From assembly GCA_041690355.1 (NCBI GenBank), contig JAWLHK010000003.1, positions 214,695-278,694 of the forward strand: DNA of 64,000 nt, given 5' to 3'. A model generated the notes under the pieces. That model searched no databases, was not told the origin of the DNA, and saw only the letters and a program-made list of their open reading frames with translations. This DNA is from JAWLHK01 sp041690355 [NCBI: bacterium] (lineage in GTDB: Bacteria > J088 > JAWLBW01). Each line of letters begins with the position of its first letter. Position 1 is the stretch's first letter. The translations under genes were made by a program, and so were the position numbers. Of this stretch, positions 13,253-38,474 are shown one piece after another.

Positions 13253-14143
13253 ATGCGACTCATTGACGAACTTCTCAAGGACGATTTCTTCCACGGCGGC
13301 TACCAACCGGTACCCGAAGCCCCCGCTCGGGCCGACGACGGCGCGCGCGGCCGGGCCGGACTGGTCGCGGCGGTCGCGGCGGTGTTTCTCCTGCTGGGCG
13401 GCGGCGCTGGCGGCGCATGGTACTTTCTGTTGCGCCCGGGCGCAGTCGAGAGCGTGCCCGCGCTAACCACCGCCGGCGCGCTTTCGGACACGGGCACTCA
13501 CGACGACGCTCCTCTGCCCACGACGTTCACCGCGGCGGCCACCGATGCTGCCCTGGCCGAGGCCATGACGGCCCCCGTGACGGCGGCTGCCGTCACCCGG
13601 CCGACCGAACAGACTCCGTCGCCGGCGGCCGCGAACCCGGTACCGCAGGAAGCGCCTGTGCAGACGGCTTCGAAGCCTGTCGAACCGTCTGAGCTCTGGG
13701 TGCTCGCCTTTCCCACCCTCGTGAACGCAGGCGAAGTCGAGCGCATCAAGCGTATGCTTGCCGAAAGCCGGATCGAGGCGCGAGTCAACGAAACGCGGGC
13801 CCGCGCCAATGTGTACAAGGTCGTGTCTTCGGCGCCGGTCGCCGCGGCCGATCTGGAAGAGACCCGGCACAAGGCGAATCAGGCCAAGCTCCCTTTTCGC
13901 GAGACGCCGGCCGCAGACGACACCTTCGCTTTCGATCTCGGCACCTATTCGGCCGACGATGCAGCCCAGGTGCTCGCGCTCGCGGGTCGCATCGGCCTCG
14001 GCGCACGGCTCGAGCCGACGACCGCATTCATCCCGGCCTGGGAAATCGAGGCCGGCTCTTATCCCGCGCAGTCGGCAGCCGACCGCGCCGCCGGACTGCT
14101 TACCGCTTCAGGACTTGACGTCAAAGTGAGACAGGTGCGCTGA
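13253..14143 (+). CDS. Membrane-anchored protein with two SPOR-like domains
   Basis: A 296-residue bitopic protein. Residues 1-35 are cytoplasmic, about 36-60 form one membrane segment, then a Thr/Ala/Pro-rich linker leads to two SPOR-like repeats (about 145-215 and 220-296), each with the strand-helix-strand pattern and phrases like LVNAGEVERIKRMLAES and EIEAGSYPAQSAADRA. SPOR domains bind denuded septal peptidoglycan, so a division-site or polar location is likely. ATG 13253 is chosen since it begins MRLIDELL just before the membrane segment; the frame is open to 13202. Its stop overlaps the next gene as TGATG. Confidence 0.6.
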   Translation: MRLIDELLKDDFFHGGYQPVPEAPARADDGARGRAGLVAAVAAVFLLLGGGAGGAWYFLLRPGAVESVPALTTAGALSDTGTHDDAPLPTTFTAAATDAALAEAMTAPVTAAAVTRPTEQTPSPAAANPVPQEAPVQTASKPVEPSELWVLAFPTLVNAGEVERIKRMLAESRIEARVNETRARANVYKVVSSAPVAAADLEETRHKANQAKLPFRETPAADDTFAFDLGTYSADDAAQVLALAGRIGLGARLEPTTAFIPAWEIEAGSYPAQSAADRAAGLLTASGLDVKVRQVR

Positions 14144-15261
14144 TGCTGCCCCTTCGCAACGATTTACCGCTCTCGGCCGAGGCCCGCAAGTTTCTCGTCC
14201 CTGCCCCCGAGCCGGCGCGCATGATGGCCGCCCGCGGCCTCGCCCCCCTGGCGCCGGTCGAGCTGCTGCAGGTACAGGTTCTCCTGAGCGAAGACGAGGC
14301 CCCCTCCGTGGCCCAGGCCGCGGCCCAGAGCCTGCAGGGCCTTCCCGAGAGCATGTTTCTGGCTGCCATCCCGTCGATTTCGGACGGCTCGATTCTCGAC
14401 CGCATCGCCCGCTGCCCGCTGACGGCGAAAGCGAAAGAAGCCCTGCTGCTCAACCGTGCCGTCGCCGACGAGACCCTCGTTCACGTCGCAACCGCCGAAA
14501 AAGACGACAAGGTACTCGACATTCTCGCCGGCAACCAGGCGCGTATGATGAACCATGCGCCCATTGCTGAGGCCATGCTCGAGAACCCGCACGTGTCGTT
14601 CGCGACCAAGCGACGCCTCGAGGAATTCTTTCTGAACGACTACGCCGCACGCATTCTCGACCCGGGCCAGGAAGCACCGCAGGAGGCAGCCGACACCCTG
14701 GCTGCCGATTTCGCCGCGGCCCTTGCCGTCGCTCCCGCCGGCGGCGTCGCCGAAGTCGAGGCCCTCAGTCCCGAAGAGCTCGCCCGGGAACTGCTGGAAG
14801 AGAAACCCGACGACGCGCCCGCAGCCCCGGTCGAAGAGGCCAAGAAGAACAGCCTCTACAAGACCATCATCGATATGAAGGTCTCGGGCAAGATCAAGCT
14901 CGCCCTCAAGGGGAATAAAGAAGCACGCAGCATCCTGATCAAGGATGCGAACAAGCTGGTTTCGGGCAGTGTCCTCAAGAATCCGCGCATTTCCGACGGC
15001 GAAGTCGTGGCCGTCGCCAACTCCAAGAGCGCCAGTGAAGATCTGCTCCGGATCATCGCAGCGAACTCGCAGTGGATGTCTCTCTATGCGATCCGGTCGG
15101 GACTCGTGCACAATTCGAAGACCCCGCCGGCCATCGCCATGAAGCTTCTGCCGACCCTCAGCGACGCCGAAATTGCAAAGCTGACCAAGAGCAAGGGGGT
15201 CTCCGGTGCGGTCTCGACCGCTGCCAAACGACTGATGAACGCGAAGGCGAAAAGGAAGTGA
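14143..15261 (+). CDS. Helical-repeat protein of unknown function
   Basis: I do not recognise a named family. The 372 residues are predicted almost all helical, with repeated units of about 25-35 residues built like 'N-x-x-(V/I)-(S/A)-(D/F)-x-x-(V/L)' (NRAVADETLVHVATAEKD, NPHVSFATKRRLEEFF, NPRISDGEVVAVANSK), which suggests a HEAT- or LRV-like solenoid. An acidic stretch lies at about 200-235, and the tail after residue 340 is Lys-rich. No signal peptide or membrane segment is seen. It sits between the SPOR protein (1-base overlap) and the MglA-like GTPase (6-base gap), so it may be an adaptor for the GTPase; that is inference. Confidence 0.6.
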   Translation: MLPLRNDLPLSAEARKFLVPAPEPARMMAARGLAPLAPVELLQVQVLLSEDEAPSVAQAAAQSLQGLPESMFLAAIPSISDGSILDRIARCPLTAKAKEALLLNRAVADETLVHVATAEKDDKVLDILAGNQARMMNHAPIAEAMLENPHVSFATKRRLEEFFLNDYAARILDPGQEAPQEAADTLAADFAAALAVAPAGGVAEVEALSPEELARELLEEKPDDAPAAPVEEAKKNSLYKTIIDMKVSGKIKLALKGNKEARSILIKDANKLVSGSVLKNPRISDGEVVAVANSKSASEDLLRIIAANSQWMSLYAIRSGLVHNSKTPPAIAMKLLPTLSDAEIAKLTKSKGVSGAVSTAAKRLMNAKAKRK

Positions 15262-15267
15262 GAGCCC

Positions 15268-16227
15268 ATGGCGCTGCTCAATTATAAGAAAAAAGAGATC
15301 AACGCCAAGATCGTTTATTACGGTCCGGGCCTCTCGGGTAAGACCACCAACATCCAGCACATCCACACCAAGCTGCGTCCCGAGCACAGGGGCAAGCTGA
15401 TGACGCTGGCCACGCAGACCGACCGGACGCTCTTCTTCGACTTCCTGCCGGTCGAGCTCGGCGAAATCCGCGGACTCAAGACCCGCTTTCAGATCTATAC
15501 CGTACCCGGCCAGGTCTTCTACAACGCGACCCGCAAGCTCGTCCTCAAGAATGTCGACGGCGTCGTGTTCGTCGCCGACAGCGATCCCGCGCACCTGGCC
15601 GACAACCTCGAGAGCCTGCGCAACCTCGAGCAGAACCTGCAGCATCATGGCAAGAACATCCGTACGCTGCCGGTCATCATCCAGTACAATAAGCGCGACC
15701 TTCCGAACGCCATGCCGATCGAGGAGCTCGAGGCGAAACTCAACAGCTTCGGACTCCCATATACCGAAGCCTCGGCCGGACTTGGCAAAGGGGTGCTCGA
15801 TACCCTGACCCGGATCTCCAAGCTCGTCCTGCAATCTCTGCGCGATACGCAGAACATCACGAAAATCGAAGAGGCTGCAGGCAAGGCGGGCGTTAACGCA
15901 CCAGACCCCGGCATGCTCGAGAGCGACGCCGCCCTCGAAAGCCCCATTGCCGCCGATGATGATGAGCTCGAAATGGAAGTCGAGCTCGAAGACCCGGATG
16001 CCGAGACGGCCCTCGAGATTGAAGAGGAACTCGACGAAGGAGAGCAGGAAAACGTCTTGCTCGGGGCAGAGGACCGTACGGCCCCGCCGACGCTCGAGCT
16101 GAAAGGAATCGTCGAGTCGAAGGTCACGGGTCCGACCACGCTCGAACTCACCCTGGCGTTTCTGACCCCTTCGGGCGAGCAGGAAGTCACCCTGCAGGTC
16201 GACCTGCGCGCGCTGGCTCCCCGCTGA
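15268..16227 (+). CDS. MglA-like Ras-superfamily GTPase with acidic C-terminal extension
   Basis: Residues 1-195 match MglA of Myxococcus, the GTP switch that sets cell polarity for motility: P-loop GPGLSGKT (19-26), TDRTLFFDFLP with R53, the MglA-specific TVPGQ (T78 replacing the usual Asp, Q82 catalytic) and NKRD (141-144). The GTPase site thus looks active. MglA normally ends near 195; here about 125 more residues follow, first acidic (about 225-270), then a predicted beta-rich end (LELKGIVESKV onward). No MglB (GTPase activator) gene is in the window. It closes the SPOR-repeat-GTPase operon. Confidence 0.85.
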   Translation: MALLNYKKKEINAKIVYYGPGLSGKTTNIQHIHTKLRPEHRGKLMTLATQTDRTLFFDFLPVELGEIRGLKTRFQIYTVPGQVFYNATRKLVLKNVDGVVFVADSDPAHLADNLESLRNLEQNLQHHGKNIRTLPVIIQYNKRDLPNAMPIEELEAKLNSFGLPYTEASAGLGKGVLDTLTRISKLVLQSLRDTQNITKIEEAAGKAGVNAPDPGMLESDAALESPIAADDDELEMEVELEDPDAETALEIEEELDEGEQENVLLGAEDRTAPPTLELKGIVESKVTGPTTLELTLAFLTPSGEQEVTLQVDLRALAPR

Positions 16228-19492: not shown

Positions 19493-22402
19493 TCAGCGGG
19501 TGGTAAACTCAACCCGCCGGTTCTTCGCGCGGTTATCCGGGGTCGTGTTCGGCACGAGCGGCTTCTCTTCGCCGGCGCCCACGGCCGTGAGGCGTTCGGC
19601 GGCGATCCCCTTCGAGACCAGATACCGGACGACCAGTTCGGCCTGCTCCTGCGTCAGGCGCAGATTACCCGCCGCCGGGCCCTCGTCGTCGGTGTAGGCG
19701 CGAACACTGACCTTGAGGTCCTTGCGCTGGGCGAGCACCGCGGCGAGCGCATCGAGAAGTTCGCGCTGCTCGGCCGAGAGTTCACGGGCGCTGCGATCAA
19801 TCGAGACCGGACGCGCGAGCAGGAACCGGCTCCCCTCGAGGCGCACCAGGGCGCTGCCGGCCCCCCCTTCGGGCTCGAGGGTGAAGTCCTGCACCGTTTT
19901 CTTGCGCTCGAGAATCTGCACCTTGACGATCTTTTCTGCAAAGCCTTTGGCGCTCAGCCGCACATCGTAGGTGCCGACGGGGACGACTTTGTAGAAGTTG
20001 CCGGTCGACGGATCTACCGCGAGGGTGCCGATCTTTTCGTCGAGGAACTGGACGACGCCGCCCGCCAGGGGCGTTCCGTCGGGTCCGAGCAGCCGTCCGG
20101 CAATGGCGCCGACCGCGTTCGTCGGGGCGAGCTGGATGTCGACCTGCGTTTTCTTTCCGGCTTCGATGGGAATCAGGTAGTTCCGGTTGCCGTAGCCCTC
20201 GGCGGCCACTTCGATCTTGTAGCGTCCCGGCGGGAGCGACGCATAGAACTCGCCGGTCTCGGGGTTGGCGATAAGCTCGCGCAGGTCGGCTTCGGGAAAG
20301 GAGATTACGCCGGCGACGGGCTTGCCGTCGGGAGCGAGCAGTCGCCCGGCAAGCGCCCCGACGGTGCTCATGCCCACCGAAGGTAGCTCAAAGACGACGC
20401 GGGTCTTGCGCCGGGCCTGAATCGGAACGAGAAAGACTTTCGCGTCAAACCCTTCGGCTTCGACCTGCACCTTGTATTCGCCGGGCGGGAGAATCTTCAC
20501 GAAGCTGCCGTCGGCAGGATTGCTGCGGGTACCGGCGATGTCCTGGTCGAGAAAGGTAAGCGTCGCCCCGACCGGCTTGGCGGCCGAGTCGAGCACGTTA
20601 CCCACGAGAGCGCCGACGAGCTGACCGCCCTCGTCAATCTTGCGCAGCAGGATCTTTTCGGTGATGACTTCCTGGCTCAGGACGGTCGGCGCGATCACAA
20701 CCGGCTCGTACTGCTCCTTGACCACGCGGATGCGCGCCTGCCCCGCCAGCAGCGGGTGGCTGGTGAACTCGCCCTGCTCGTCCTGAGTAACCTGGCGCGT
20801 CACGTCGAAGTCGGGATACTGGATAATCGCTCCGCCCAGCGGCTCGCCGGTTTCGGCGTCGACGACGATCCCCTTCACGAAGCCGCGCGTGTCGACGATC
20901 TTCTGCGAGTCAGGGTCGTGACTGTAGCTGAGCCCGAACCAGAGCTGGTACGGATTGGTGGAGCGGGCAGCACGCCGGGCCGCGATGTACTCGCCGGTCA
21001 GTCCGTACGAAAGGTCGACGGCGAAATCGAGCACCATCCGGTCGATGAAGTTCCAGCGAACGCCTGGCGTGAAACGCTGCGCGCTCGAACTCCAGCCTTC
21101 CTTGTAGAGGCCGTTGCCTACCTTGTTGTTGATTTCCTGTTCGGTTGTGTATTCGAGGAAAACGGTGTAGGCGTCCTGCGGAAATTCGAGCGCGAAATTC
21201 AGGATGAACTGATCGCCGGCGCGCACATTCAAGGCATTGATGCGGCTGGCGGTGAGTTCGGCGTCGAAGTCCAGGTTGGCCCCGTCTCCGGCAAGCAGCG
21301 CCTTGTAGCCGTTGTCCCAGAAGAACCCGAGGTTCAGATGGGCGACGAGCGGCCACTGCAGCTTGGGCTGTTCGCGGGCGTCGAAGGTCAGCATGCCCAT
21401 CGGCAGCAGGCTGAACGTTCCGAGGCGCGTGCCCAGCGTCCGCACGCGGGTGTACATCTTGATGTCGAGAAGCCCGCCGGTCGAGAGGTACTCGTTGATC
21501 GGATGGACGTACTTGCCGCCCAGCGACAGATCGCCGAGCGTCTGAATGAATTCCGGCTCGAGCCCGGTGGCGTTCGGGGTGATGCGGTGCGCGGTGCCGA
21601 AGCCGTCGAGGTGGACCTCGAGGTTGTCAAGGACGTTGTAGATCAGGTGCCCGCGGATATCGAGGCGCGTATGGTCGGCGTTATCCCACTCGTCGCCCAG
21701 ATAATAGAAACCGAGGTGCGAGCCGAAACGCATCCCGTTCCGGATGCCCGTGCGTCCCGAAACCGTGCGGAACACGCCCGTAAAGCCGGACAGAGTGAGG
21801 CCGTTTTCGGAGCCGGCACGCTTGTTGATGACCAGCTGGCCGGTTTCAAGACGGAAGGTGTCGGCGGTCGAAGGTGCCGGCGCCTCCGGTTCCGTCGCAT
21901 CTGCGCTGCCGAAGGTCGTCACCTGTTCTGCCTGCTCGCCGCTCGACGGCGCCGGAGCGGTCTGGGGTGCGGTGTCGCTGCCGAAAGTCGCGGCGGGGGC
22001 TTCATCCTGCTGCGCCGGGGCGGGCGGAGTCGAAGGCTGCGGGGCGGGCTGCGCGTTCGCGTCGGCGGCAGGGCCCGACCCGCTCGAAAACGTGGCGGCG
22101 GGCGGCTCGTCGGCGGCAGCCGAAGGCGTTTCGGCCCCGGAAGTCTCGACTGCATCCGCCTGCTCCTGGCTTGCAGCCGGGGTCTCGGCGGGCGCCGGCG
22201 ACGCAGAGTCCTGCTCGGGCGATGACGCCTCAGACGGCGTTTCATCCGACGAGAAAGTCGCCCCCTCGTCGGCTGCGGGCGCGGGCGCTTCCTGCACCGA
22301 GGGTGCCGGGGCCGTCGGCCGGGCCTGACGGTTCAACTGCGCCTGCGCGGGAAGCGGAGACAGCGACAAAAAAAGCAGGGAAAGGAGCAGCTTGCGCGAC
22401 AC
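19493..22402 (-). CDS. Large outer-membrane protein: disordered lead, beta-barrel-like region, four carboxypeptidase-regulatory-like repeats, OmpA C-terminus
   Basis: A 969-residue exported protein. Order: signal peptide (KLLLSLLFLSLSPLPAQAQ), a Pro/Ala/Glu-rich lead of about 160 residues with four repeats built on (T)TF(S/G)S, an aromatic strand-rich region of about 300 residues that looks like a barrel, four domains of about 80 residues of the carboxypeptidase-regulatory or PEGA type (each ending near PPGxYKxxVxAxGF), and an OmpA-like peptidoglycan-binding end with NRAKNRRVEF. GTG 22402 is chosen: AGGA lies 5 bases before it, and the promoter at 22448-22476 would place the mRNA start near 22441, at or after the in-frame ATG at 22444. 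Probably ties the outer membrane to the cell wall; no specific role is known. Confidence 0.8.
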   Translation of the reverse strand: MSRKLLLSLLFLSLSPLPAQAQLNRQARPTAPAPSVQEAPAPAADEGATFSSDETPSEASSPEQDSASPAPAETPAASQEQADAVETSGAETPSAAADEPPAATFSSGSGPAADANAQPAPQPSTPPAPAQQDEAPAATFGSDTAPQTAPAPSSGEQAEQVTTFGSADATEPEAPAPSTADTFRLETGQLVINKRAGSENGLTLSGFTGVFRTVSGRTGIRNGMRFGSHLGFYYLGDEWDNADHTRLDIRGHLIYNVLDNLEVHLDGFGTAHRITPNATGLEPEFIQTLGDLSLGGKYVHPINEYLSTGGLLDIKMYTRVRTLGTRLGTFSLLPMGMLTFDAREQPKLQWPLVAHLNLGFFWDNGYKALLAGDGANLDFDAELTASRINALNVRAGDQFILNFALEFPQDAYTVFLEYTTEQEINNKVGNGLYKEGWSSSAQRFTPGVRWNFIDRMVLDFAVDLSYGLTGEYIAARRAARSTNPYQLWFGLSYSHDPDSQKIVDTRGFVKGIVVDAETGEPLGGAIIQYPDFDVTRQVTQDEQGEFTSHPLLAGQARIRVVKEQYEPVVIAPTVLSQEVITEKILLRKIDEGGQLVGALVGNVLDSAAKPVGATLTFLDQDIAGTRSNPADGSFVKILPPGEYKVQVEAEGFDAKVFLVPIQARRKTRVVFELPSVGMSTVGALAGRLLAPDGKPVAGVISFPEADLRELIANPETGEFYASLPPGRYKIEVAAEGYGNRNYLIPIEAGKKTQVDIQLAPTNAVGAIAGRLLGPDGTPLAGGVVQFLDEKIGTLAVDPSTGNFYKVVPVGTYDVRLSAKGFAEKIVKVQILERKKTVQDFTLEPEGGAGSALVRLEGSRFLLARPVSIDRSARELSAEQRELLDALAAVLAQRKDLKVSVRAYTDDEGPAAGNLRLTQEQAELVVRYLVSKGIAAERLTAVGAGEEKPLVPNTTPDNRAKNRRVEFTTR

Positions 22403-22447
22403 GTGTATCCTATGGGCGCTGACTCTGCGGACGCCAAAAGTCATACA

Positions 22448-22478: not shown

Positions 22479-23240
22479 TCAGAATTCTGTTTGATTTTGG
22501 TCCGTTACCTGCATTTCATCCCAGACCCGGACGGCACGGAGTTCACCTCCGGCGTGGTGGCGGAGCGCCTCGCGGACCAGTTGGCGCAGCTCTTCGCGAA
22601 CCACCCGCCTTGCGGCGCCCGGAATATCTTCAGGGCGCACGGCATCGGGCAGCCCTGCAAGCGCCTCCAGGGTCTGCCGGCTGACGGCAACCCCCCCTCT
22701 GCGGCAGTCGGGGCAGAATACTCCTCCCTCGGCGGCCACGAACCAGCCCTGCCCGGGGCGGTTGCCGCAGCCGATGCAGGCCGCAAAAGGGGCCAGCATG
22801 CCGTGATGGCGCAGAAAGGCGAGCAGGGCCAGGTCGAAGCCGGCCCGGTTCAGCTCCCCCTCCTGGATGACCCGCCAGGACGCCAGAAGCCAGTCGAAGG
22901 ATTCCCGCCCCTCATCGCCGGCCACGGCAAACCGGGCGGCAAGTTCGAGCAGCCCCTCGGCCATGCCCAGACGGGCCAGGTCGCCCAGGAGGCCGGGAAA
23001 CCACTCGCGGATGCGCACGTCTTCGAGACGGGCGATGGCGCCGGCCGTGCGCTGCGTGAGCCGCACGTCGAGGCAGACGAGTTTCTGCAGCCGGCCCCCG
23101 TAGCGCTTGCGGCTCGCCCGCGCACCGCGGGCGACACCGCTCATGCGCCCCTGGTCGCGGGTCAGAAGGTCGACGATGAGATCACTTTCACCCAGCGCGC
23201 GGTGGGTGATCACGACCGCCTCGGTCTCCCACCGCTCCAC
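22479..23240 (-). CDS. recO: DNA repair protein RecO
   Basis: Recombination mediator that with RecR loads RecA on gapped DNA. The 253 residues have the N-terminal OB-fold start (ETEAVVITHRALGESDLIVDLLTRDQGRMSGVAR, key part only), the helical middle and a zinc site formed by CIGCG and CPDC. It starts with GTG one base after the preceding chemoreceptor-like gene and is the last gene of that operon. The link to receptor genes is probably only positional. Confidence 0.93.
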   Translation of the reverse strand: MERWETEAVVITHRALGESDLIVDLLTRDQGRMSGVARGARASRKRYGGRLQKLVCLDVRLTQRTAGAIARLEDVRIREWFPGLLGDLARLGMAEGLLELAARFAVAGDEGRESFDWLLASWRVIQEGELNRAGFDLALLAFLRHHGMLAPFAACIGCGNRPGQGWFVAAEGGVFCPDCRRGGVAVSRQTLEALAGLPDAVRPEDIPGAARRVVREELRQLVREALRHHAGGELRAVRVWDEMQVTDQNQTEF

Positions 23241-23241
23241 G

Positions 23242-25803
23242 TCAGGAGACCGAGACCCGCGTCAGTTTTTCTTCGACGCGCTCGAGCAGGGCGTCGATGC
23301 GCTGAAGCTGGGCGTCGATTTCAGTCGCTAGATCGCGGTTGTGCACCGTGGACGCCCGGATCTCGCCCATGAAATCGACGACCCCCGTCGATCCGGCCGA
23401 CAGCGTGCGCAGGTCGCGGCGGATGGCCGCGATACCATCGGCCATGCGCGCCAGCGACCCACCCAGCCCGCGCGTACTCTCACCCTGGTCGCCGGTGGTG
23501 TTCTGCACGGTCTGCAGCATGCGCTGCAGCTGATCGAGGCCCTGGCGCAGTTCGCCCATGTCGCGCGTGCTGTCCTGGGTGAACTGGCGCAGGTTCTCGA
23601 GCCGCTTGAGTTCGTCGCTCACGTCGCCGAGAATCTGCGCGATGTTGTTGTTCTGGTAGAAAATTCCTTCGCTGATCGTCCGCGCATTGCGCTCGTTCAG
23701 CGACGCCTGCTCGCGGATGGACTCGACCGACTCGACCGCCATGCCCGTCAGCAGCTGGCCCTGCTGCATGCGCCCCAGAGCGACGCGAATCTCTTCGAGC
23801 GACCGGTGGGTGTGCTCGCGGATGCGATGCATGAGCACGCCGACGTCCTTCGTGTTCGACTCGGTGCGCTCGGCCAGGTCCTTGATTTCGTCGCCGACGA
23901 CGGCAAAGTCCTTCGCATGCTCGTCACCTGACTGCGCCGCGAGGATGGCGGCGTTGAAGGCCAGCAGGGCCGTCTGCTCGGTTACCTCGGTAATGACGTC
24001 GACCACCCCGCCGATGCGCACGACCCCTTCGCGGAAGTTCTGCAGTTCGGCAAACAGATTCTCGGTGCCGGTGCTGACGACCGTGACCCCCGCGGCAATG
24101 CGCTTGACCGCCTCATTGGACGCCACCGCCCGCTCGCTCGCGTGCTCACTGCTGCGGGCCACCGACTTGACTTCGTTATCGAGCACCGTGAATGCCTCGC
24201 GCACCCGCGCGACCGAGGAGCGCAGCCTGATGACCCCCTCGTACAAGTCGTTGACGCCGTTCGACGAACCTTCGACGTTCTGATACATCAGATCGATGAG
24301 CCGGTTTCCGGCGCGGATGACATCCAGCAGCTCGACGAGCTCCTGCCGGATGTCGTCGAGATAGTTTTCGAGCTGGCTGACGGTGCTCTGGCTCTCGCCG
24401 GTCGACCGGACGATGACACCGGCGTTTTCTTCGATGTCGCGCAGGGCCCCGTTCAGGCCGCTGACGCTCGTGAAGGCGAGCTCGACGCTCTTCTCCTGCT
24501 CGGCCGAGCGGGCCCGGATCTCCTGCATGCCGGCGCCGATTTCAGCGCGAAAGCGCTTGCCATGCTCCAGACTGGTCTTCATGTCGCGGAACATGCTGCG
24601 CAGCCCCCCCTCCATTTCGTGCAGGGCGCCATCGAAGAGGCTCAGCTCGTCTTCGGTGATGATGACCGGGGGCTCCCGCAGCGATCCGGTCGCCAGGTCG
24701 CGAACCCAGCCGCGGAGGGCCGAGAACGGGCCGATGATGTCCCGGGTGGCCATGTCGAAAATGGCGACCGACGTCCCGAAGGCAAAGAAGAGAATCAACA
24801 GCGTCACCCAGACGATGGCCAGGCTGCCGCTGAGATAGACCATGGCGGGGACGGTCGCGATGGCGTAGCCGCCCGGAACGGCCCGAAAGGCGATTCGATC
24901 GAGTGTCTGCCGATCTTCAAACTCACCGCTCACGCTGGTAAGGGCCGGTACGATGCGCTCGAGCGACATCGGCAGCGCGCCGATGACGCGATTCGGACCC
25001 GACTCCCAGATGGCCAGCGAAAAGTTGAGGTACCGCTGCCGTTCGCGCAGATAGTCGGGCCAGGCCGACGAATCGGCCGGGAGATCGGGCACCAGATTAG
25101 CGAGCACCGCCGACGCCTGAATACCGGCCTGCTCGCCAGAAACGCGCAGCAGCTGCCCATAGCCCATGAGCCCCGACAACGTAAGCGCGCCCATGACCAG
25201 CAGAACCATGGTGACCAGCAGACGCACCCGGGCGCTGATGCGGAATCCCTCGGGCAGCTCCTGGCCGGCCGGAATGTGCTGCACCAGCGTGCGCCCGACC
25301 GGCTGCATGAGCAGGCGAAACAGGCTGAACTGGAAAATCAGCACGATGAAAGCCGCCACGCCCCCGGTCGCCAGCAGAAAGGCCAGCTTGACCGGCGAAA
25401 TCTTCAGTGAGAGATAGAGGCCGATCGCGAAGGCGACCAGCGAAAGAATCCAGAAGAGAAAACTGACGCCGGCCATCCGTCGCGGCAGGCTCACATAGTT
25501 CTGCGTCGCCTCGTTCAGCGCCTCGGCGTCGACCTGCCCCATGCCGGCCTGGTACAGAAAGCGGGTCACCGGACGCAGGATGCGCTCGTTGTAGAGCATC
25601 TGTCCGAAGAAGTCGATCGCCAGAATCGCGGTGAGGTACCGCAGCGCCGTCGTCCACTCCGACTGGTGCAGCGAGACGACCGGCAGGATCATCCACGAGA
25701 GCAGCGCCACCGCTCCGATCGAAGTCAGGCTGTAGGCGGTCGTCAGGCGCAAGCGCAGCCGTATGCCCACCCAGCCGCCGAAGCTCCGGAAGAGAAAGTT
25801 CAT
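23242..25803 (-). CDS. Chemoreceptor-like protein 1, six membrane helices, altered signalling tip
   Basis: An 853-residue protein. Hydrophobic segments lie at about 22-42, 52-70, 112-132, 140-162, 194-216 and 324-346, so the sensing part has four extra N-terminal helices besides the usual pair round a short extracellular domain (about 217-323). A HAMP-like stretch and a long coiled coil follow, with the hairpin tip at about 609-650: EQTALLAFNAAILAAQSG, then FAVVGDEIKDLAERTE. In Tsr-type receptors the tip reads NAAVEAARAGE; here E385 and R388 equivalents are Leu and Gln. It overlaps the related gene 25800-28328 by 4 bases. The ligand is unknown. Confidence 0.8.
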   Translation of the reverse strand: MNFLFRSFGGWVGIRLRLRLTTAYSLTSIGAVALLSWMILPVVSLHQSEWTTALRYLTAILAIDFFGQMLYNERILRPVTRFLYQAGMGQVDAEALNEATQNYVSLPRRMAGVSFLFWILSLVAFAIGLYLSLKISPVKLAFLLATGGVAAFIVLIFQFSLFRLLMQPVGRTLVQHIPAGQELPEGFRISARVRLLVTMVLLVMGALTLSGLMGYGQLLRVSGEQAGIQASAVLANLVPDLPADSSAWPDYLRERQRYLNFSLAIWESGPNRVIGALPMSLERIVPALTSVSGEFEDRQTLDRIAFRAVPGGYAIATVPAMVYLSGSLAIVWVTLLILFFAFGTSVAIFDMATRDIIGPFSALRGWVRDLATGSLREPPVIITEDELSLFDGALHEMEGGLRSMFRDMKTSLEHGKRFRAEIGAGMQEIRARSAEQEKSVELAFTSVSGLNGALRDIEENAGVIVRSTGESQSTVSQLENYLDDIRQELVELLDVIRAGNRLIDLMYQNVEGSSNGVNDLYEGVIRLRSSVARVREAFTVLDNEVKSVARSSEHASERAVASNEAVKRIAAGVTVVSTGTENLFAELQNFREGVVRIGGVVDVITEVTEQTALLAFNAAILAAQSGDEHAKDFAVVGDEIKDLAERTESNTKDVGVLMHRIREHTHRSLEEIRVALGRMQQGQLLTGMAVESVESIREQASLNERNARTISEGIFYQNNNIAQILGDVSDELKRLENLRQFTQDSTRDMGELRQGLDQLQRMLQTVQNTTGDQGESTRGLGGSLARMADGIAAIRRDLRTLSAGSTGVVDFMGEIRASTVHNRDLATEIDAQLQRIDALLERVEEKLTRVSVS

Positions 25804-28328
25804 GCCAGCCTGAACCGCTCCACGAATCGGTGAAAGGACTGGGCCTCGGCGCGCAGGGCTTCGACGTCACGCCGCAGGCGTGCCGTCATGCTCTTGTTCG
25901 CATCCGAGCCGTGTTCGATCGTCTTCATGGCCCGCCCGATGGCGAGCACCTGTTCCTGCTGTTCGCCGAGAATGCGGGCCAGATGAGCGATCATGGTTTC
26001 GACCTGTTCGATGTCACCCGAGAGCACGCGTCCCCCCTCGGCCTGGGCGCGCGCAAGCGACTTGACCGCCAGCGCCCCCCCCTTGACCCGCTGCATGCGC
26101 GTCTCGACTTCCTTGGCGCGGGCCAGCCGGCTCCGGACGTCGCCGTGCACCTGCTCAATCAGCCGGGCGAGTTCGAGCCCCTGCTGCTCGATGCCCTCGC
26201 TGAGTGTAACCTGCTCCTGCGATGCCTCGGCGACCCGCGTCATGCCGCGCGCCCCGTTTTCGGCCAGTCCGATGATCGAGGCCAGGTGTTCGCCCGATGA
26301 GGTCGAGGCGTGACGCGTTTCTTCGACGCTGGCGCGAACTTCGTCGACACCCGACGAGAGCTGCAGGCTGCTCTCGCTCACGGAGCGGATCATGGAGATG
26401 ATCTGTCCGGTCGCCGTATTGGTGCGATCGGCCAGCGTCTTGATCTTCTCGGCGACCACGGCGAAGCTGAGGCCGTTCTCGCCCGCCTGCGCCGCAATGA
26501 TGGCGGCGTTGAGGCTGAGCAGCTTGGTGTCGTCGGCGACCTCGTCGATGACGCCGATGAGCTTGCCGACCGAGTTGAGCTTGTCGATCAGATCCTGCAG
26601 CGCGTGCGACGTGCGCTCGACCGAGTCTTCGATGAGCGCAATGCTGTTGACGGTCTGGCCCGTCATGTCGAGCCCTTCACGGCTCGATTCGAGCATGCGC
26701 GTCGAAATGTTGCGCGTGCCCGAAACGCGTTCGCCGTTGCGCCGGATGGAGTCTGAAAATTTGCGAATGTTGCGCGTGAGAACCTCTGTCGATCGGAGCA
26801 GATCGCTCAGGTTGGCGAAGATCAGCTCCGAGACGCGCTGGTTGTGCTCGAGTCCCGAGACGACGCTGTTGAGCAGCTGCATGACCCGGTCGGTCGAATC
26901 ATCGACGTAACGTACGGTGCGATCGAGCTGAAGAATCGCCGACGATCCTTCGGCCGACTGCACATTCAGGGCGTCGCCGGCCCGCGCGATCTTCTGCAGC
27001 CCGCCGGTCATGCTCTCGACCGACTGCAGCCCGCGGTGAACGCGCGCCGACTGCTCTACCGACGTTTCTTCGATCTTCTGCGCCGCCACCAGCAGGCGCT
27101 GCGAGACCACATCGATCTCAGCGCTGGCCGTGTCCAGGTCGGCGGCGACGCCGCGCAGAAATCCCCGCACGGTTTCCAGTTCAGCAGAAAATTCGCCGAT
27201 TTCGTCTTCGATCAGGATCTCGGCGCTCTGGCTGAGGTCGCCTCTCGCCATGCGCTGCGACTTTCGCACCAGCTCACGCAGCAGATTGGCAATTTCGCGG
27301 GCCGTGAACGTCGCGACCGCGAGAATGGTCAGCATCGCAATCAGAAACAGGCCGAGGTAGGCATTGCCCGCCTCGTGCATGGCGTTCTCCGACATGCGCC
27401 AGGGATAAATCGCCAGCAGCGAATACTGCCCGTTGCCGACGGCCATTTTGCGCGCCAGCCACGGGCTGCGCCAGTTCACCGCCGTCGCCCCCTCGAGCGT
27501 ATTCAAGGGCAGGTTCGCGGTGTTCAGGTTGAGGACGTCGCGCCCTTCGACGTCGAGCAGAAACAGGCGTCCGCCCGAGCCGAGCTGCGTACGCGCGAGA
27601 ACGGGCCCCACCGACGCGGCTGCCCCCGCGGCAAGCGCCTGGTCGACCTGCGGCGCGAGACGGCGCATCTCGTTTTCGGCGTGGCTGAGAAGCCCGGCCT
27701 GCGTGCGTTCGGCAATGAATGTGTATCCGAAGAGGCAGGAAAAGACGAGTGAACTGCCGATGAGCGTTCCCGCCGCGGTTACCAGCTTGTTGCGCAGCCC
27801 AAAGAGCGGCGTCGAGAACAGGTAGCGCCCATGCCCCTGCGCGACGACCTGCCGCGCGACTTCGCGGGCCAGCGGCCTGATCCGGCTCTTGTAGAAGTAG
27901 AACTGGAGCAGAAAACCGATGCCGCCCCCGCAGAGAATCGCCATGAAAATCGCGAGGGACAGAAAGAGGGTGGTGTCGTCAGCCGTCCACGTCCCGAAGA
28001 AGAGGTAAAACAGCAGCACCCCGACGACGTCGAGCCCCACCCATAAAAACCACGAAAGCTGGGCGGCCCGCACGGGAAACGCCCGCAGCGAGTTGATGGC
28101 ATGCAGAATGTCGCGGTCAATGACCTCCTGGCGCGGAAGCAGCGGACGAAGCAGCAGTGCGTGCAGGATGCCGCCGAAGACGAACGCGCCGACCGCCAGC
28201 ATGATGCCGACATTGCGCTCTTCTTCGGACAGCCGCAGCACCCATACGATAAGTCCGGCCGTCGCCCCGAGCGCGACGGTAACCGAACCGCTGTGGATGA
28301 TCTGCAACTGGCGGTGGAGCTGCTTCAC
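25800..28328 (-). CDS. Chemoreceptor-like protein 2, six membrane helices, altered signalling tip
   Basis: An 842-residue paralogue of the next gene in the operon, with the same plan: four N-terminal hydrophobic segments (about 13-32, 42-62, 93-113, 122-143), a fifth at about 186-206, an extracellular domain of roughly 115 residues, a sixth at about 323-345, HAMP (about 346-395) and a coiled-coil signalling part. The tip at about 599-640 reads LLSLNAAIIAAQAGENG then FAVVAEKIKTLADRT; again the tip Glu and Arg of classic receptors are Ile and Gln. The start is GTG, overlapping the rodZ-like stop as GTGA. No methylation sites or C-terminal CheR pentapeptide are evident. Confidence 0.8.
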   Translation of the reverse strand: MKQLHRQLQIIHSGSVTVALGATAGLIVWVLRLSEEERNVGIMLAVGAFVFGGILHALLLRPLLPRQEVIDRDILHAINSLRAFPVRAAQLSWFLWVGLDVVGVLLFYLFFGTWTADDTTLFLSLAIFMAILCGGGIGFLLQFYFYKSRIRPLAREVARQVVAQGHGRYLFSTPLFGLRNKLVTAAGTLIGSSLVFSCLFGYTFIAERTQAGLLSHAENEMRRLAPQVDQALAAGAAASVGPVLARTQLGSGGRLFLLDVEGRDVLNLNTANLPLNTLEGATAVNWRSPWLARKMAVGNGQYSLLAIYPWRMSENAMHEAGNAYLGLFLIAMLTILAVATFTAREIANLLRELVRKSQRMARGDLSQSAEILIEDEIGEFSAELETVRGFLRGVAADLDTASAEIDVVSQRLLVAAQKIEETSVEQSARVHRGLQSVESMTGGLQKIARAGDALNVQSAEGSSAILQLDRTVRYVDDSTDRVMQLLNSVVSGLEHNQRVSELIFANLSDLLRSTEVLTRNIRKFSDSIRRNGERVSGTRNISTRMLESSREGLDMTGQTVNSIALIEDSVERTSHALQDLIDKLNSVGKLIGVIDEVADDTKLLSLNAAIIAAQAGENGLSFAVVAEKIKTLADRTNTATGQIISMIRSVSESSLQLSSGVDEVRASVEETRHASTSSGEHLASIIGLAENGARGMTRVAEASQEQVTLSEGIEQQGLELARLIEQVHGDVRSRLARAKEVETRMQRVKGGALAVKSLARAQAEGGRVLSGDIEQVETMIAHLARILGEQQEQVLAIGRAMKTIEHGSDANKSMTARLRRDVEALRAEAQSFHRFVERFRLA

Positions 28329-29098
28329 GGCGACGGGGCCCCTTCGCGCGAGAAGACCTTGCGGCGCACGCGGCCCTGTTCGCCGAATCTGCCGAGCGAA
28401 CGGCCCTCGTAGATCACCGTCACCCCCCCGGCGTTACCCGTGAGCAACTCGATGCGTTCGTCGCCGCGCACCCGCCAGATGGTTCCGGACTGCATCATGC
28501 GCTCTTCGGGTTCGCGGCCGTCGACCCCGATCTTTACGTAGCTGACCTGGTCGGCCTGCACCTCGAGCTCCATCGGCTTGCGCGCCGGCGGGCCGGGGGG
28601 TTCGGGCGCGATTTCAACCGTTTCGGCGGGCGCCGTCACGGCGAGGGTGGCCTCCGTCACGGGAAGCGGCAGGGGGGCGGGCTCGGGCAGCGTTGCAGCG
28701 GTCTGAACCGACACGCCCGAACGCACGGCAAAGAGGGCCCAGCCCGCCAGCGAAAGCAGAATCACCGCGCCGAGTGCGAAGATGACTTTGCGAATGGGCT
28801 GCCGCCCTTCGATGAGGTACATCTTTTCGCCGCGCACCTCGCGCAGATCGGGCGCCATTGACTGGTGATTCGTATGCTCTTCATAGCGCAGCACGACTTC
28901 GTCGGCGTTGATGCCGAGGTAGCGGGCATAGCTGCGCAGGAACCCTTTGATGAAAATATCGGCGCCCAGCTCTTCAAAGCGCTCTTCTTCGAGGGCTTCG
29001 AGCGCCCGCATACCGATACGGGTCGCCTGAGCAACCTCGCGCAGCGAGACCCCCCGCATTTCCCGTTCGCGTTTGAGCCAGGCCCCGAATCCTTCCAC
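28325..29098 (-). CDS. RodZ-like protein: N-terminal HTH, one membrane helix, periplasmic DUF4115-like domain
   Basis: RodZ links the MreB cytoskeleton to the wall-building complex. The 257 residues have an Xre-type helix-turn-helix (about 1-70, GVSLREVAQATRIGMRALEALEEERF and IKGFLRSYARYLG), a membrane segment at about 97-119, a Pro/Ala linker and a beta-rich end (about 170-257) like DUF4115. The start is GTG directly after the stop of the lipoprotein gene, with AGAGG about 6 bases before it. The 3' end overlaps a chemoreceptor-like gene, so the two proteins are probably made together. Confidence 0.85.
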   Translation of the reverse strand: MEGFGAWLKREREMRGVSLREVAQATRIGMRALEALEEERFEELGADIFIKGFLRSYARYLGINADEVVLRYEEHTNHQSMAPDLREVRGEKMYLIEGRQPIRKVIFALGAVILLSLAGWALFAVRSGVSVQTAATLPEPAPLPLPVTEATLAVTAPAETVEIAPEPPGPPARKPMELEVQADQVSYVKIGVDGREPEERMMQSGTIWRVRGDERIELLTGNAGGVTVIYEGRSLGRFGEQGRVRRKVFSREGAPSP

Positions 29099-29893
29099 TC
29101 AGCGCCTCTTCTCTTCCTTGCCCTTCAGCAGCTCGAGCATGTAATTGCACTGATCGGCGTCGCGGGAGCCGGGCGCCATCGACTTCACGCGCTCGCAGGC
29201 CTTGATGGCGTTCGTGCGCTGGCCCACGCGCAGGTAGGCGTTCGAGAGCTGTGCGTACGGCTCGGCAAACTTCGGGCACAGTTTGACGGCTTTGGAGAGC
29301 GCCTGCACGGCCTCGACATACTTCTTGTCGCGCATGTGCACGACGCCCATCTTGTTGTAGGCCATGCAGGCGACATCGCGCGCCTCGGGCTTCGGCATCG
29401 CTATGGCGACCGCCTTCTGGTAGCTCTGCTGCGCATTGGCGGAATCGAAACGCCCCGAAAATGCGTCGCCGCGGTTCAGCCAGGCGCGCTCGGGGGTCGC
29501 ATAGAGCAGATCGGCGATGGCCCGATCGAAGGCGGCCACTGCCTCGTCGAACCGTCCGGCGGCGGCATAGGCGGCGCCGAGGTTATTGTGCGCTTCAGAA
29601 AAATCGGGTTTCAGCGTAACCGCTTTTTCGTAGGCCCGGATGGCCAGCACGTACTCTGCTTTGCAGTAGTATGCCAGCCCCAGGGCATTCTGCAGTTCGG
29701 CGTCTTCTGCATTGCGCTTTTCGGCTTCGAGCAGATAGCGAAGCGCCTCGGTGCAGTTGTCGGAGAGCAGGGCCGAGATGCCCAGTTTCGTATAAAACGC
29801 CGCTTCGCCCTTGGTTTCGGGCGAGTGCGCGCAGGCCGTCAGTACGGCGAGAAGAAAAAGCGGAACCGCGCGAAAGCGGATGTTCTTGCGCAA
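29099..29893 (-). CDS. TPR lipoprotein, Tgl/PilF/PilW-type pilotin
   Basis: A 264-residue lipoprotein with five or more TPR units. The signal ends in the lipobox LTAC at residue ~19. The phrase YATPERAWLNRGDAF matches the 'TPE-x-A-x-x-N-x-G' mark of PilF/PilW/Tgl proteins, which help the type IV pilus secretin PilQ assemble in the outer membrane. TTG 29893 is chosen: AGGAG lies 7 bases before it and it gives a proper signal peptide, and no ATG or GTG does. If correct, the cell makes type IV pili, whose other genes are outside this window. Confidence 0.78.
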   Translation of the reverse strand: MRKNIRFRAVPLFLLAVLTACAHSPETKGEAAFYTKLGISALLSDNCTEALRYLLEAEKRNAEDAELQNALGLAYYCKAEYVLAIRAYEKAVTLKPDFSEAHNNLGAAYAAAGRFDEAVAAFDRAIADLLYATPERAWLNRGDAFSGRFDSANAQQSYQKAVAIAMPKPEARDVACMAYNKMGVVHMRDKKYVEAVQALSKAVKLCPKFAEPYAQLSNAYLRVGQRTNAIKACERVKSMAPGSRDADQCNYMLELLKGKEEKRR

Positions 29894-29903
29894 AACGAAT
29901 CTC

Positions 29904-30533
29904 CTAGGCCGAGGTAAGTAGACGGAGGAAAACCTTGAAATTCTTATCTTCGAGCGGATCGGCCGATTGCGGCTGCGGGGGCGGCGCGGGCGCCTGAATG
30001 TACCCGACCTGGGTCGGCGGCGCATCGGGACGCAGCTCGAGAATGGAGTCTTCGATTTCCAGATCGCCGGGCTGGTTGTCGAGCAGAACGACTTCTGCGC
30101 CGGCGCCGGCATCGGTCGACGCAGGCTGCGCCTGGGGCTGCGGCCGCGCGCGCGGAGCCAGGGGCGAGAAGATCGGAACGCCCGCGAGGGTGTTGCGGCG
30201 CACCGTGTCGTCGACACGGCGGATCTGCAGGTCTTCCATCATGAAGCCCATGCTTTCCGTAAACTGCACGCCCTGTTCCTGCACGAGCGGATAATCGCTC
30301 TTGTCGATAGGCTCCATCCACCGGTAAACCAGGGCCGCGTTCGAGCTCAGCATGTGCAGGTAGATGTAGGCTTCAATCCCCATCCGCCCGCGGCCGGTCA
30401 CGAAGTAGGCCCGCGCCTCCTGCGCATCGAGCGTGTCGGCGGCAATCTGCGGCTGATTTACCGAGCTGTAGAGCTCGAGCAGGCCCGCCGGATCGAGCGG
30501 AACGGCCGCCATCCCCCGGCTCAGTTCAAACAT
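29904..30533 (-). CDS. Uncharacterised protein between pfkB-type kinase and pilotin genes
   Basis: I do not recognise this 209-residue protein. Residues 1-120 look folded (helical, with RAYFVTGRGRMGIEAYIYLHML and a later DLQIRRVDDTVRR); residues 120-190 are Pro/Ala-rich and probably disordered; the last stretch DKNFKVFLRLLTS is a short amphipathic helix that could be a docking peptide. No signal or membrane segment. It overlaps the kinase by 8 bases and lies 10 bases before the pilotin gene. Confidence 0.65.
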   Translation of the reverse strand: MFELSRGMAAVPLDPAGLLELYSSVNQPQIAADTLDAQEARAYFVTGRGRMGIEAYIYLHMLSSNAALVYRWMEPIDKSDYPLVQEQGVQFTESMGFMMEDLQIRRVDDTVRRNTLAGVPIFSPLAPRARPQPQAQPASTDAGAGAEVVLLDNQPGDLEIEDSILELRPDAPPTQVGYIQAPAPPPQPQSADPLEDKNFKVFLRLLTSA

Positions 30534-31446
30534 GATTGGGCTCCAGTTCGAGCATCTTGCGATAGCTCTGCATGCGCTCCTGAATCTCCGGATGGGTAAG
30601 CCGGGTGAGCCGGCGCAGGCTGAAGTCTTCGACCGTGAAACTGGCCATGACGCTGCCGAAGGCGACCGCTTTGCGCAGGGTGCCGGCTTCAAAGCTGCCG
30701 GCGTGGGCGAGGTAGCCCATGAAGCCGCCGGCGAACGTATCGCCGGCCCCGGTGGGGTCGAACACGTCTTCGAGAGGATACGCGGGGGCCGAAAAGATCG
30801 ACCCCTCGCCGAACAGGAGCGCTCCGTATTCGCCCCGCTTGACGGCGACATAGCGCGGCCCCAGCGAGAGTATCTTGCGGGCGGCGCGCACCAGGTTGTA
30901 CTCACCCGTGTATTCGCGCGCTTCGGCTTCGTTCATGAAGACGAGGTCGACGGCGCCGAGCACCTCGGTGAGCGAATCCTTCTTCGTCTCGATCCAGTAG
31001 TTCATCGTGTCGCAGGCCACGATGCGCGGCCGCTTCGTCTGCCGCAGGACGTCGAGCTGCAGATCGGGATCGATATTGGCGAGAAAGAGGTACTCGATTT
31101 CGGCATATTCCGACGGAATCACCGGGCGGAAGTCGCCGAGCACGTTCAGTTCAGTCTTGCGCGTCTCGGCCGTATTCAGATCGAACCCGTAGGCACCCGA
31201 CCAGCGAAAGGTCTTGCCTTCGGGGATGGACACGAGCCCGGCCGTATCGACCTTGTGCTTCTGAAGCAGCTTGATGTGCTCGTCGGGAAAATCGGCCCCC
31301 ACGGCGGCGACGACCGACGGCGAGGCGAAGTAGCCGGCGGCCACCGAGAAATAGACGGCCGAGCCGCCCAGAACGTTATCGGCCTTGCCGAAGGGGGTCT
31401 CGACGTTGTCGAGCGCGACCGAGCCAACCACGAGAATACGTGACAT
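30526..31446 (-). CDS. PfkB-family carbohydrate/nucleoside kinase
   Basis: A ribokinase-fold kinase of 306 residues. It has the N-terminal GSVALDNVETP and GGSAVYFSVAA glycine pair and the catalytic anion-hole motif DPTGAGDTFAGG with the catalytic Asp. Substrate cannot be assigned; adenosine-kinase-like and sugar-kinase members look alike at this level. ATG 31446 is chosen over 31455 by homology (MSRILVVGSVALD). It is the first gene of the operon that runs to recO; the promoter at 31540-31568 leaves a long leader of about 90 bases. Confidence 0.88.
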   Translation of the reverse strand: MSRILVVGSVALDNVETPFGKADNVLGGSAVYFSVAAGYFASPSVVAAVGADFPDEHIKLLQKHKVDTAGLVSIPEGKTFRWSGAYGFDLNTAETRKTELNVLGDFRPVIPSEYAEIEYLFLANIDPDLQLDVLRQTKRPRIVACDTMNYWIETKKDSLTEVLGAVDLVFMNEAEAREYTGEYNLVRAARKILSLGPRYVAVKRGEYGALLFGEGSIFSAPAYPLEDVFDPTGAGDTFAGGFMGYLAHAGSFEAGTLRKAVAFGSVMASFTVEDFSLRRLTRLTHPEIQERMQSYRKMLELEPNHV

Positions 31447-31539
31447 GCGATCCAATCCTGATCAGGGCGGCATTAGCGCGTCTGGGGGCCAGACCCGGCC
31501 CCTCGCAGCGCTGCCTGCCGGGTAGTCCGACGCTGCAAC

Positions 31540-31568
31540 ATTGTATTCAGATTCCCCCCGAATATCAA
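31540..31568 (-). promoter_or_regulatory. Promoter of the pfkB-pilotin-rodZ-receptor-recO operon, with long leader
   Basis: TTGATA (31563-31568, minus strand), 17-base spacer, TACAAT (31540-31545). Start is expected near 31533. The leader to 31446 includes a 6-bp GC hairpin (GGGGCC, six-base loop, GGCCCC; about 31477-31497) without a T-run. Confidence 0.68.
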
Positions 31569-34868: not shown

Positions 34869-36347
34869 TCAACGAACGCCAACCGACCAGCCCGCCGAAA
34901 CGGCGAACCGGGTCAGTACGGCGCGCACGGCCTGCGGCAGCGTCGCGAAGTTGCCGCGCTGCACCTGGTGAACGTCGCGTTCCGAGGCTACGCCGAAGGC
35001 GCTGCGCACCCAATGGGCGTGCGCCGGAGCGTCGCCGTAGAAGACGTACTCGACCGGGCGATCGGCCGCGGTGAGCCAGCGCGCGCTTTCGTTGAGAAAA
35101 TCGAGTTCCTTGTCGTCGGCGGCCGAAGCCACGATGAGCCCGCCGCAGATCGTGCCGACCGGAACGTCGGCCAGCGCGAGGTAAGACCGGCCGGGCGGGT
35201 AGAAATCGAGCTGGAGCGTGAAGTCGCCGTCCAGGGGATAGAGGATGCGGTTGCCCAGGACGCGGTCCTGGTGCTGATGCCACTCGGCATTCGGCAGGAC
35301 GCCCTGCACGCCCGAGATGACTTCGGCTGCGCTCACGAATACCGGAATCCGCAGCGTCTGCGGCCGGCGCGGCGTGTGCCTGACCGCCTGCTTCAGAAAG
35401 GCGGCCAGCGACGTCTCGATGCGCAGGCCCGCGTCGAGTACCGGATTCGAGCCGCTCAATCCGACGAGCCCCGCGTCGAGCAGCGAACGAAGCGCATGAT
35501 GGGCCTCGAGGTCGGGCACGCGTGCGTTCTCGACGATATCTTCGGGGCTGCCGTAGAACTCGACCAGCAGCAGAATCTCGCGGTGCACCGGATGCAGCCC
35601 CTGCGGCAGGGCGCTCAGATCGCGCAGGAGCACGAGCCGGCCGCTGAGCGGCCGGTCGGCCCGGAGGCGGTCGACTTCGTCACGCTGGCGGGCCCCTTCA
35701 AGCAACAGTGCATCGAGCGGCAGCGTGATGGCTTCGGCCCGGCCGACGCGCGCCGACTTGAATACGAAGCGGCCGCTGTCACGTTCGAGAAGGCGCAGAA
35801 ACGCCTTCATGCCTTCGGCCTTGCCGGCGCGCGCGTCGACGACCTCTCCTTTGCGGATCCAGAGCGTGCCCGTAGGCTCTCCCTGTACCTCGAGCATCCC
35901 TTCGCGGCGATTGGCGCGGATGAGCTGCAGGAGGTCGGCCATCGGGATTTCGGAGAGCGATCCGGCGAGCCGGTCGCCCCCTTCGGCCACGGCGCTGATG
36001 CGAAAGGCGAACCGCAGCACGGCGTCGACCGCCTGCTGTTTGACGACCGGCTTGGCGAGCACGGCATCGGCAAAGCTCGCCGCCCCCCCACCCTCGCGCA
36101 CGAGCACGATGGGCACGCCGGCCGTGCGCGGATTGTTCCGCAGAATCTCGACGAGCTTCGGAGTATCGATCACCGGCAGCGATTCGCCGAATACGAAAAG
36201 GTCCTGCCGTACGCTGAGAGCGCGTTCGAGCGCCTGGGCGCCGTCGGCCGCGACCGAAACGTGTACGTCGAGGTCTTCGAGCGCCTCCTCGATGCGGACG
36301 ACCGTTTTCTGGTCGGCGTCGGCGATGAGAATATACTTGGCGGCCAT
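34869..36347 (-). CDS. Pseudo-receiver plus PATAN (DUF4388) protein with possible degenerate GTPase-like end
   Basis: A 492-residue soluble protein. Residues 1-120 have a receiver fold (YILIADADQKTV) but the phospho-acceptor position reads LFVFGESLPVID, with no Asp, so phosphorylation is unlikely. Residues about 125-210 match PATAN/DUF4388 (GSLSEIPMADLLQLIRANRREG, GTLWIRKGEVVDA). Residues about 330-492 resemble the second half of small Ras-like GTPases in strand order, but where a P-loop should be (VFVSAAEVISGVQGVL) there is no GKS/T. Domains of this type occur in deltaproteobacterial and cyanobacterial motility and polarity regulators. It overlaps the preceding regulator gene by one base. 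Confidence 0.7.
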   Translation of the reverse strand: MAAKYILIADADQKTVVRIEEALEDLDVHVSVAADGAQALERALSVRQDLFVFGESLPVIDTPKLVEILRNNPRTAGVPIVLVREGGGAASFADAVLAKPVVKQQAVDAVLRFAFRISAVAEGGDRLAGSLSEIPMADLLQLIRANRREGMLEVQGEPTGTLWIRKGEVVDARAGKAEGMKAFLRLLERDSGRFVFKSARVGRAEAITLPLDALLLEGARQRDEVDRLRADRPLSGRLVLLRDLSALPQGLHPVHREILLLVEFYGSPEDIVENARVPDLEAHHALRSLLDAGLVGLSGSNPVLDAGLRIETSLAAFLKQAVRHTPRRPQTLRIPVFVSAAEVISGVQGVLPNAEWHQHQDRVLGNRILYPLDGDFTLQLDFYPPGRSYLALADVPVGTICGGLIVASAADDKELDFLNESARWLTAADRPVEYVFYGDAPAHAHWVRSAFGVASERDVHQVQRGNFATLPQAVRAVLTRFAVSAGWSVGVR

Positions 36348-38122: not shown

Positions 38123-38474
38123 AAATGCGTTCGGCTGCCCCATACAGCGCGATCCCGGCAATTAACCCCGCTACGTCTGCCACCCAGTCGGCAAGTTCGA
38201 CCGACCGGCCCGGCACATAGGCCTGATGGACCTCGTCGGTTGCAGCGTAGATCGTCCCCAGGATCAGGGCCGTGAGCCCGCGAACCATAGTAGTGGATGC
38301 GCCTTCTTTCGTCAAAGCCGCCATCAGCAGAAAGCCGAAGCCGGCAAACAGCATCCAGTGCCCGAGCTTGTCGGGCATGTCACGGGGGATGGGCGGATGC
38401 GACTGGTGGCTCAGCCAGAAGATGAAGGCCGCGTAGACGGCCACGAGTCCCCAGCGCAGCAGGGGGCGTTGCAT
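38088..38474 (-). CDS. VanZ-like membrane protein
   Basis: A 128-residue membrane protein with four hydrophobic segments and the VanZ-family marks DKLGHWMLFAGFGFL and DEVHQAYVPGRSVELADWVADVAG. VanZ-type proteins are linked to teicoplanin resistance in one case, but most have no known role. The Arg-rich last ten residues are coded in the 35-base overlap with the downstream response regulator. The stop of the BFN-like gene lies in the start codon of this one. Confidence 0.85.
   Translation of the reverse strand: MQRPLLRWGLVAVYAAFIFWLSHQSHPPIPRDMPDKLGHWMLFAGFGFLLMAALTKEGASTTMVRGLTALILGTIYAATDEVHQAYVPGRSVELADWVADVAGLIAGIALYGAAERIYGHRTHSRRRR

Follow-up and report, generated by a model that had tools for sequence, protein, structure and literature searches.

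Two long chemoreceptor-like proteins with altered hairpin tips are encoded next to rodZ and may form a receptor team of their own

The window analysed here is a whole stretch of 64,000 nucleotides (contig JAWLHK010000003.1 of assembly GCA_041690355.1), in which seven minus-strand genes lie between 22479 and 31455 in the same-strand order pfkB, hypothetical, tgl-like, rodZ, receptor A, receptor B and recO (Table 1), with all gaps at 10 bases or less and some of the starts chosen by eye. The first-pass annotation had described two paralogous receptors translated in series with rodZ through 4-base overlaps, and the reading frames bear this out: the stop of rodZ and the start of A share GTGA (28325-28328), the stop of A and the start of B share ATGA (25800-25803), and the junctions from the tgl-like gene through rodZ, A and B to recO measure 0, -4, -4 and +1 bases, the tgl-like stop abutting the rodZ start. 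The composition of both receptor genes is of the coding type (GC3 of 0.83 in A and 0.86 in B vs. GC2 of 0.43 and 0.42). RodZ scored over the cut-off with HTH_25 (81.8 bits, cut-off 24.6) as well as with RodZ_C (41.5 bits, cut-off 23.9). The gene before it, which has a TTG start preceded by AGGAG and encodes a lipobox (LTAC), remained under the cut-offs of both the Tgl model (99.5 vs. 225 bits) and the PilW model (86.2 vs. 154 bits), and its label was therefore kept at Tgl/PilW-like. A rodZ gene next to a PilF/PilW-type gene is probably also found in gammaproteobacteria. We know of no link of recO or pfkB to pili or cell shape. The seven genes may form one transcript with putative limits. Promoter-like sites numbered 3 vs. 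0.9 expected (besides the one upstream of pfkB, one inside A and one upstream of the gene after RecO, 9/12 each), and terminator-like sites 8 vs. 7.1 expected, the longest stem lying upstream of pfkB.

Table 1. Features of the gene run, in order of transcription, with positions in the window
Feature	Position	Strand	Basis and remarks
Promoter-like site upstream of pfkB	31540..31568	-	10/12 consensus matches; consensus match only
PfkB-type sugar kinase	30526..31455	-	Pfam; opens the run
Hypothetical protein	29904..30533	-	No Pfam match; overlaps the pfkB end; start chosen by eye
Tgl/PilW-like TPR lipoprotein	29099..29893	-	Tgl model; start chosen by eye
RodZ	28325..29098	-	HTH_25 and RodZ_C (Pfam)
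Receptor A, 842 aa	25800..28328	-	Six hydrophobic segments, HAMP-like segment, 32-heptad hairpin arms, altered tip
Membrane module of A (residues 1-343)	27300..28328	-	Hydrophobicity; no Pfam match except sub-threshold HAMP
HAMP-like segment of A (about residues 341-393)	27150..27308	-	PF00672, 22.9 bits, cut-off 25; end estimated
Hairpin tip of A, NAAIIAAQAGE	26478..26510	-	Ile at 385, Gln at 388 (Tsr numbering)
Receptor B, 853 aa	23242..25803	-	Build as A; altered tip and one-residue turn insertion
Membrane module of B (residues 1-348)	24760..25803	-	No Pfam family; second segment weak
Hairpin tip of B, NAAILAAQSGD	23923..23955	-	Leu at 385, Gln at 388
RecO	22479..23240	-	Pfam; one base past the B stop

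Just past recO, a 983-aa protein with repeated CarboxypepD_reg and a C-terminal OmpA is encoded (19493-22444, minus strand), and two adjacent response-regulator proteins are found at 34869-38161 (minus strand), one with DUF4388 and a receiver below cut-off, the other with GAF. On the plus strand, a small Arf/Ras-type GTPase with a C-terminal extension (15268-16227) directly follows a 372-aa protein with no Pfam match (14143-15261); the sole plasmid match to its first 192 residues was a Deinococcus ficus plasmid Arf-like protein (54% identity), and joined queries including this GTPase returned nothing in 143 genomes. The window further encodes a bacterial alpha-2-macroglobulin of 1883 aa (57082-62733, plus strand), a UvrB with 59-62% identity among the matches listed, and a synthetase at 8045-10774, taken as ValRS-type since Pfam found Val_tRNA-synt_C, with mostly 46-59% identity to its matches and no group standing out.

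Both receptors matched MCPsignal (PF00015; A 84.0 bits, B 82.4 bits, cut-off 34.6). Six membrane helices had been claimed for each of them, and hydrophobicity together with the charge of the loops agrees: A has six clear segments (residues 15-33, 42-60, 94-112, 123-141, 182-200 and 325-343), and B has five scoring 1.9-2.4 plus a weak second one (mean Kyte-Doolittle 1.18). Between the last two helices lies an outside segment of 124 residues in A (201-324) and of 116 residues in B (214-329), and the K/R counts of the loops, inside to outside 21:5 in A and 18:3 in B, fit the N-in, six-crossing topology predicted for both. In Pfam scans of residues 1-400 of A and 1-405 of B, no family appeared apart from the HAMP match of A, which spans residues 341-379 below the cut-off, and neither protein contained an output domain apart from the receptor hairpin. 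The AlphaFold2 model of the N-terminal part of A had a pLDDT of 46.5, and a likewise low-confidence model (pLDDT 58.9) would place the hairpin turn of A at residues 616-619.

If the first arm is taken to run from the estimated end of HAMP as far as the turn, and the second from there to the C-terminus, A has arms of 222 + 223 residues and B of 222 + 224, or about 32 heptads each. By this predicted arm length, with the HAMP end estimated, both proteins are of 64H-class length (64 heptads, 32 per arm), an addition to what had been recognized before. In A the hydrophobic heptad pattern passes through the tip without a change of phase; in B it is shifted by one past the tip. Gap-free comparison of A with B gave 29/200 identical residues in the first arm and 27/206 in the second (13-15%), each value being matched by 1 of 2000 shuffles; other registers were nearly as good (29 at +7 in the first arm, 25 at +4 and at -13 in the second), which leaves the register of the outer arms unsettled. 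Identity is concentrated in the tip core, with 14 of 23 residues shared ahead of the turn and 10 of 15 immediately beyond it. The strict methylation-site consensus was found in neither protein, and since it was also absent from 27 of 64 control frames, most of which had been picked by a canonical tip, the lack of such sites in A and B was set aside as an argument.

Alignment to the receptor consensus, which was gap-free for A and contained one gap past the residues concerned for B, confirmed that the equivalents of E385 and R388 of Tsr are replaced in both tips, NAAIIAAQAG in A and NAAILAAQSG in B. B also contains an insertion of one residue in the turn, after the tip and before FAVV (region 23900-23955, minus strand). 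For comparison, control tips were collected from 60 of the 68 receptor places listed in 40 genomes by a search with A and from loci L001-L008, i.e., 68 loci with 64 distinct tips that were not selected on tip sequence; the 40 genomes were given as relatives of one genome (G001), to whose group the sample may lean, and sampling by similarity to A would, if anything, favour A-like tips. Position 385 was Glu in all 64 distinct tips, and position 388 was Arg in 58, the rest having Ala (3), Gly, His or Lys, so that R388 is itself not fixed. E385/R388 marks most members of the PF00015 family but does not define it. The 43-residue core was free of indels in the 64 control tips, and the insertion of B is thus without a match there. 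Among fixed or nearly fixed positions, A departs at 374, 376, 379, 385, 388, 394 and 402, with the loss of K/R394 and of E402, the latter seen in no control tip (n = 64); B departs at 376, 380, 385, 388, 389, 392, 393, 395 and 400 and by its extra turn residue, the assignment of residues 391-395 depending on where the gap is placed. N381, A382, G390, F396, V398, V399 and L406 are kept in both proteins, and the acidic residue at 391 is retained as in the control receptors. The loss of several positions that are fixed in the 64 controls is what would be expected if both genes were losing their function, with the tip changes as the first sign, but neither reading frame is interrupted (842 and 853 codons, both of coding composition), the arm lengths agree within two residues and the pair is swapped in parallel in A and B, which makes decay extremely improbable.

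Pattern searches extended the comparison, their counts being limited by the fixed NAAI start. In 208 genomes given as relatives of another genome (G208), the DNA pattern for NAAI-hydrophobic-AAQ had three matches, each in a different genome, namely two PurE-like frames and one 34-residue frame, hence no receptor, and NAAIEAA(R/S) had 34 matches in 18 of the same genomes (individual matches unchecked). In viral_contigs, NAAI-hydrophobic-AAQ was present in 59 stretches, one of them a receptor (L052), a looser pattern allowing other small residues found L052 alone, and the canonical tip pattern had at least 120 matches. The L052 receptor is unrelated to A and B, and its tip is canonical apart from Ile at 385 and Gln at 388, so the swap is rare but not unique to A and B. 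Ile + Gln tips may also occur in deltaproteobacterial receptors. In the samples counted, the Ile/Leu + Gln pair was present in 0 of the 64 distinct control tips, and the pattern searches added this one unrelated receptor. At its own locus (L052:9008-12235) the Ile + Gln receptor is fused to a C-terminal SBP_bac_5, and no che gene was recognized by eye within 12.8 kb.

Relatives of the pair were sought in several collections. Searches with A found no homologue in genome_contigs and, among plasmids, only matches of less than 60% identity, none covering more than 80% of the query; the N-terminal module of A and that of B found nothing on plasmids. The A/B alignment retrieved the generic receptor L001 alone from genome_contigs and nothing from viral_contigs. 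Against 200 genomes of one phylum (that of G250), A had five matches in four genomes, restricted to the cytoplasmic part and once including the last helix, and four of the five appeared again among 150 genomes that were largely the same draw. Joined queries returned nothing in sets of 72 and 71 genomes, nor in a weak search of 337 genomes, in each of which no more than two candidates were scored. Because no homologue of A or B emerged from these searches, the operon linkage could be accidental. A literature search, in which RodZ itself was little used as a query, met no rodZ-linked receptor pair, and the tip letters as a query led to no paper. Geobacter GSU0582, considered as a rodZ-linked relative, was discarded, as the source passages describe a heme PAS receptor and have nothing on gene order.

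In the 48 window ORFs scanned with Pfam, a subset of the six-frame ORFs, no CheA, CheW, CheB or CheR domain was found, which makes the partner kinase of A and B a hypothetical one. The two proteins might instead work without CheA, either as a scaffold or as a relay that reaches its target (RodZ, a response regulator or the Tgl-like protein) directly. The overlap of A with rodZ points in the same direction, as does the combined loss of E385, R388, K/R394 and E402 in A. We nevertheless regard such a device as quite unlikely, given that N381, V398 and the acidic residue at 391 are as in the control receptors and that Pfam recognized the receptor hairpin as the only output domain of both proteins.

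What is known of the tip residues bears on this as well. Five conserved residues of Tsr, including Glu385 and Arg388, matter for clustering and function (PMC8466855), and the trimer-contact residues have been described as nearly invariant (PMC4692393). When five such positions were changed to alanine in Agrobacterium MCP514, the accessible text of that study names failing variants only at the equivalents of N381 and V398 (for V398 by our arithmetic, from a constant offset of 45), and in that text the variants at the equivalents of E385 and R388 are not named among the failures (PMC8466855). A and B retain N381 and V398, so a CheA-free array does not follow from the swap by itself. Both observations would suit receptors of the 64H class that sit in the usual CheW/CheA arrays, in which case the swap would be tolerated drift and the operon position incidental. 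Such membership would agree with the occurrence of 64H receptors in five Desulfuromonas genomes, for which the accessible data give 1, 1, 2, 3 and 2 (PMC8235581), and with the swap in the otherwise canonical tip of L052. It accounts poorly, however, for arms that are 13-15% identical and yet have the same two positions changed alike, and for the loss of K/R394 and E402 in A and the insertion in B, when neither an indel nor a loss of E402 occurs in the 64 controls; on balance, we find ordinary membership rather doubtful.

Our preferred reading, to which we assign a probability of about 0.38, is that A and B are membrane receptors of 64H length that form an array insulated from ordinary receptors, encoded in a rodZ/tgl operon. 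The outside domain, together with the additional helices, would sense the state of the membrane or envelope, HAMP and the hairpin would pass the signal to the tip, and A and B would assemble together and not with canonical receptors. We infer their pairing with each other from the E385/R388 trimer contact, which is replaced alike in both; for two far-diverged proteins that changed one contact in the same way, a self-contacting team is the simplest functional cause. This array would regulate a CheW/CheA-type partner of its own, the gene of which would lie outside the window; both proteins keep N381, V398, G390 and F396, as they should if they still bind a baseplate partner. Its output might act on type IV pili or on RodZ/MreB-directed wall growth, a proposal drawn from what the genes overlapping or abutting A and B do; judged by this gene company, the pair may have an envelope or pilus role. 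The reading is further favoured by arms that match in length in spite of their low identity, by a pair swap that none of the 64 control tips has, and by the Ile + Gln pair of L052. Conversely, R388 varies among the controls, recO and pfkB share the run, and since the MCP514 alanine variants at the 385/388 equivalents are not named as failing in the accessible text, the swap may not insulate. A bolder version, which we hold to be unlikely, is that Ile/Leu-385 with Gln-388 constitutes a second, orthogonal tip code, whose array would exist in a cell beside canonical receptors and, tied by gene overlap to RodZ and a Tgl-like pilus protein, monitor the envelope or the pilus. Of the first-pass annotation, the tip change stands as real and rare, and the pair does overlap rodZ, with a tgl-like gene in the same run; its CheA-free array and its wall or pilus function are conjectural, N381 and V398 being kept. 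Few sequences in bacterial signalling are as fixed as chemoreceptor tips, and a natural pair in which both partners have the same contact changed would allow a test of whether the sharing of an array is decided by tip residues. Association with rodZ and a pilus-type lipoprotein would connect chemosensory hairpins with cell shape or pili.

Among described receptors, the 64H class is nearest in build, as it has MCPsignal and two arms of about 32 heptads, like A and B, which differ from it in the six hydrophobic segments, the turn insertion of B and, presumably, the replaced E385/R388. The 64H class is listed among the MiST3 classes (PMC6943060), and the 40+24H class named for Geobacteraceae (PMC3543383) is probably the same. 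HtrVIII of Halobacterium salinarum also combines six N-terminal membrane segments with a receptor domain; the available description compares its segments with cytochrome c oxidase (PMC13401364), whereas the membrane modules of A and B belong to no Pfam family. L052 shares Ile 385 and Gln 388 with A and differs from both proteins in a tip that is canonical elsewhere, in its N-terminus and in the C-terminal SBP_bac_5. The structures 6s18 (aromatic acid chemoreceptor) and 2ch7 (Thermotoga) have the hairpin signalling domain in common with A and B by sequence, but their aligned tips read NAAIEAAR. The E. coli receptors are classed as 36H and those of Thermotoga as 44H in the accessible text of PMC2577667, and their arms are thus shorter than those of A and B.
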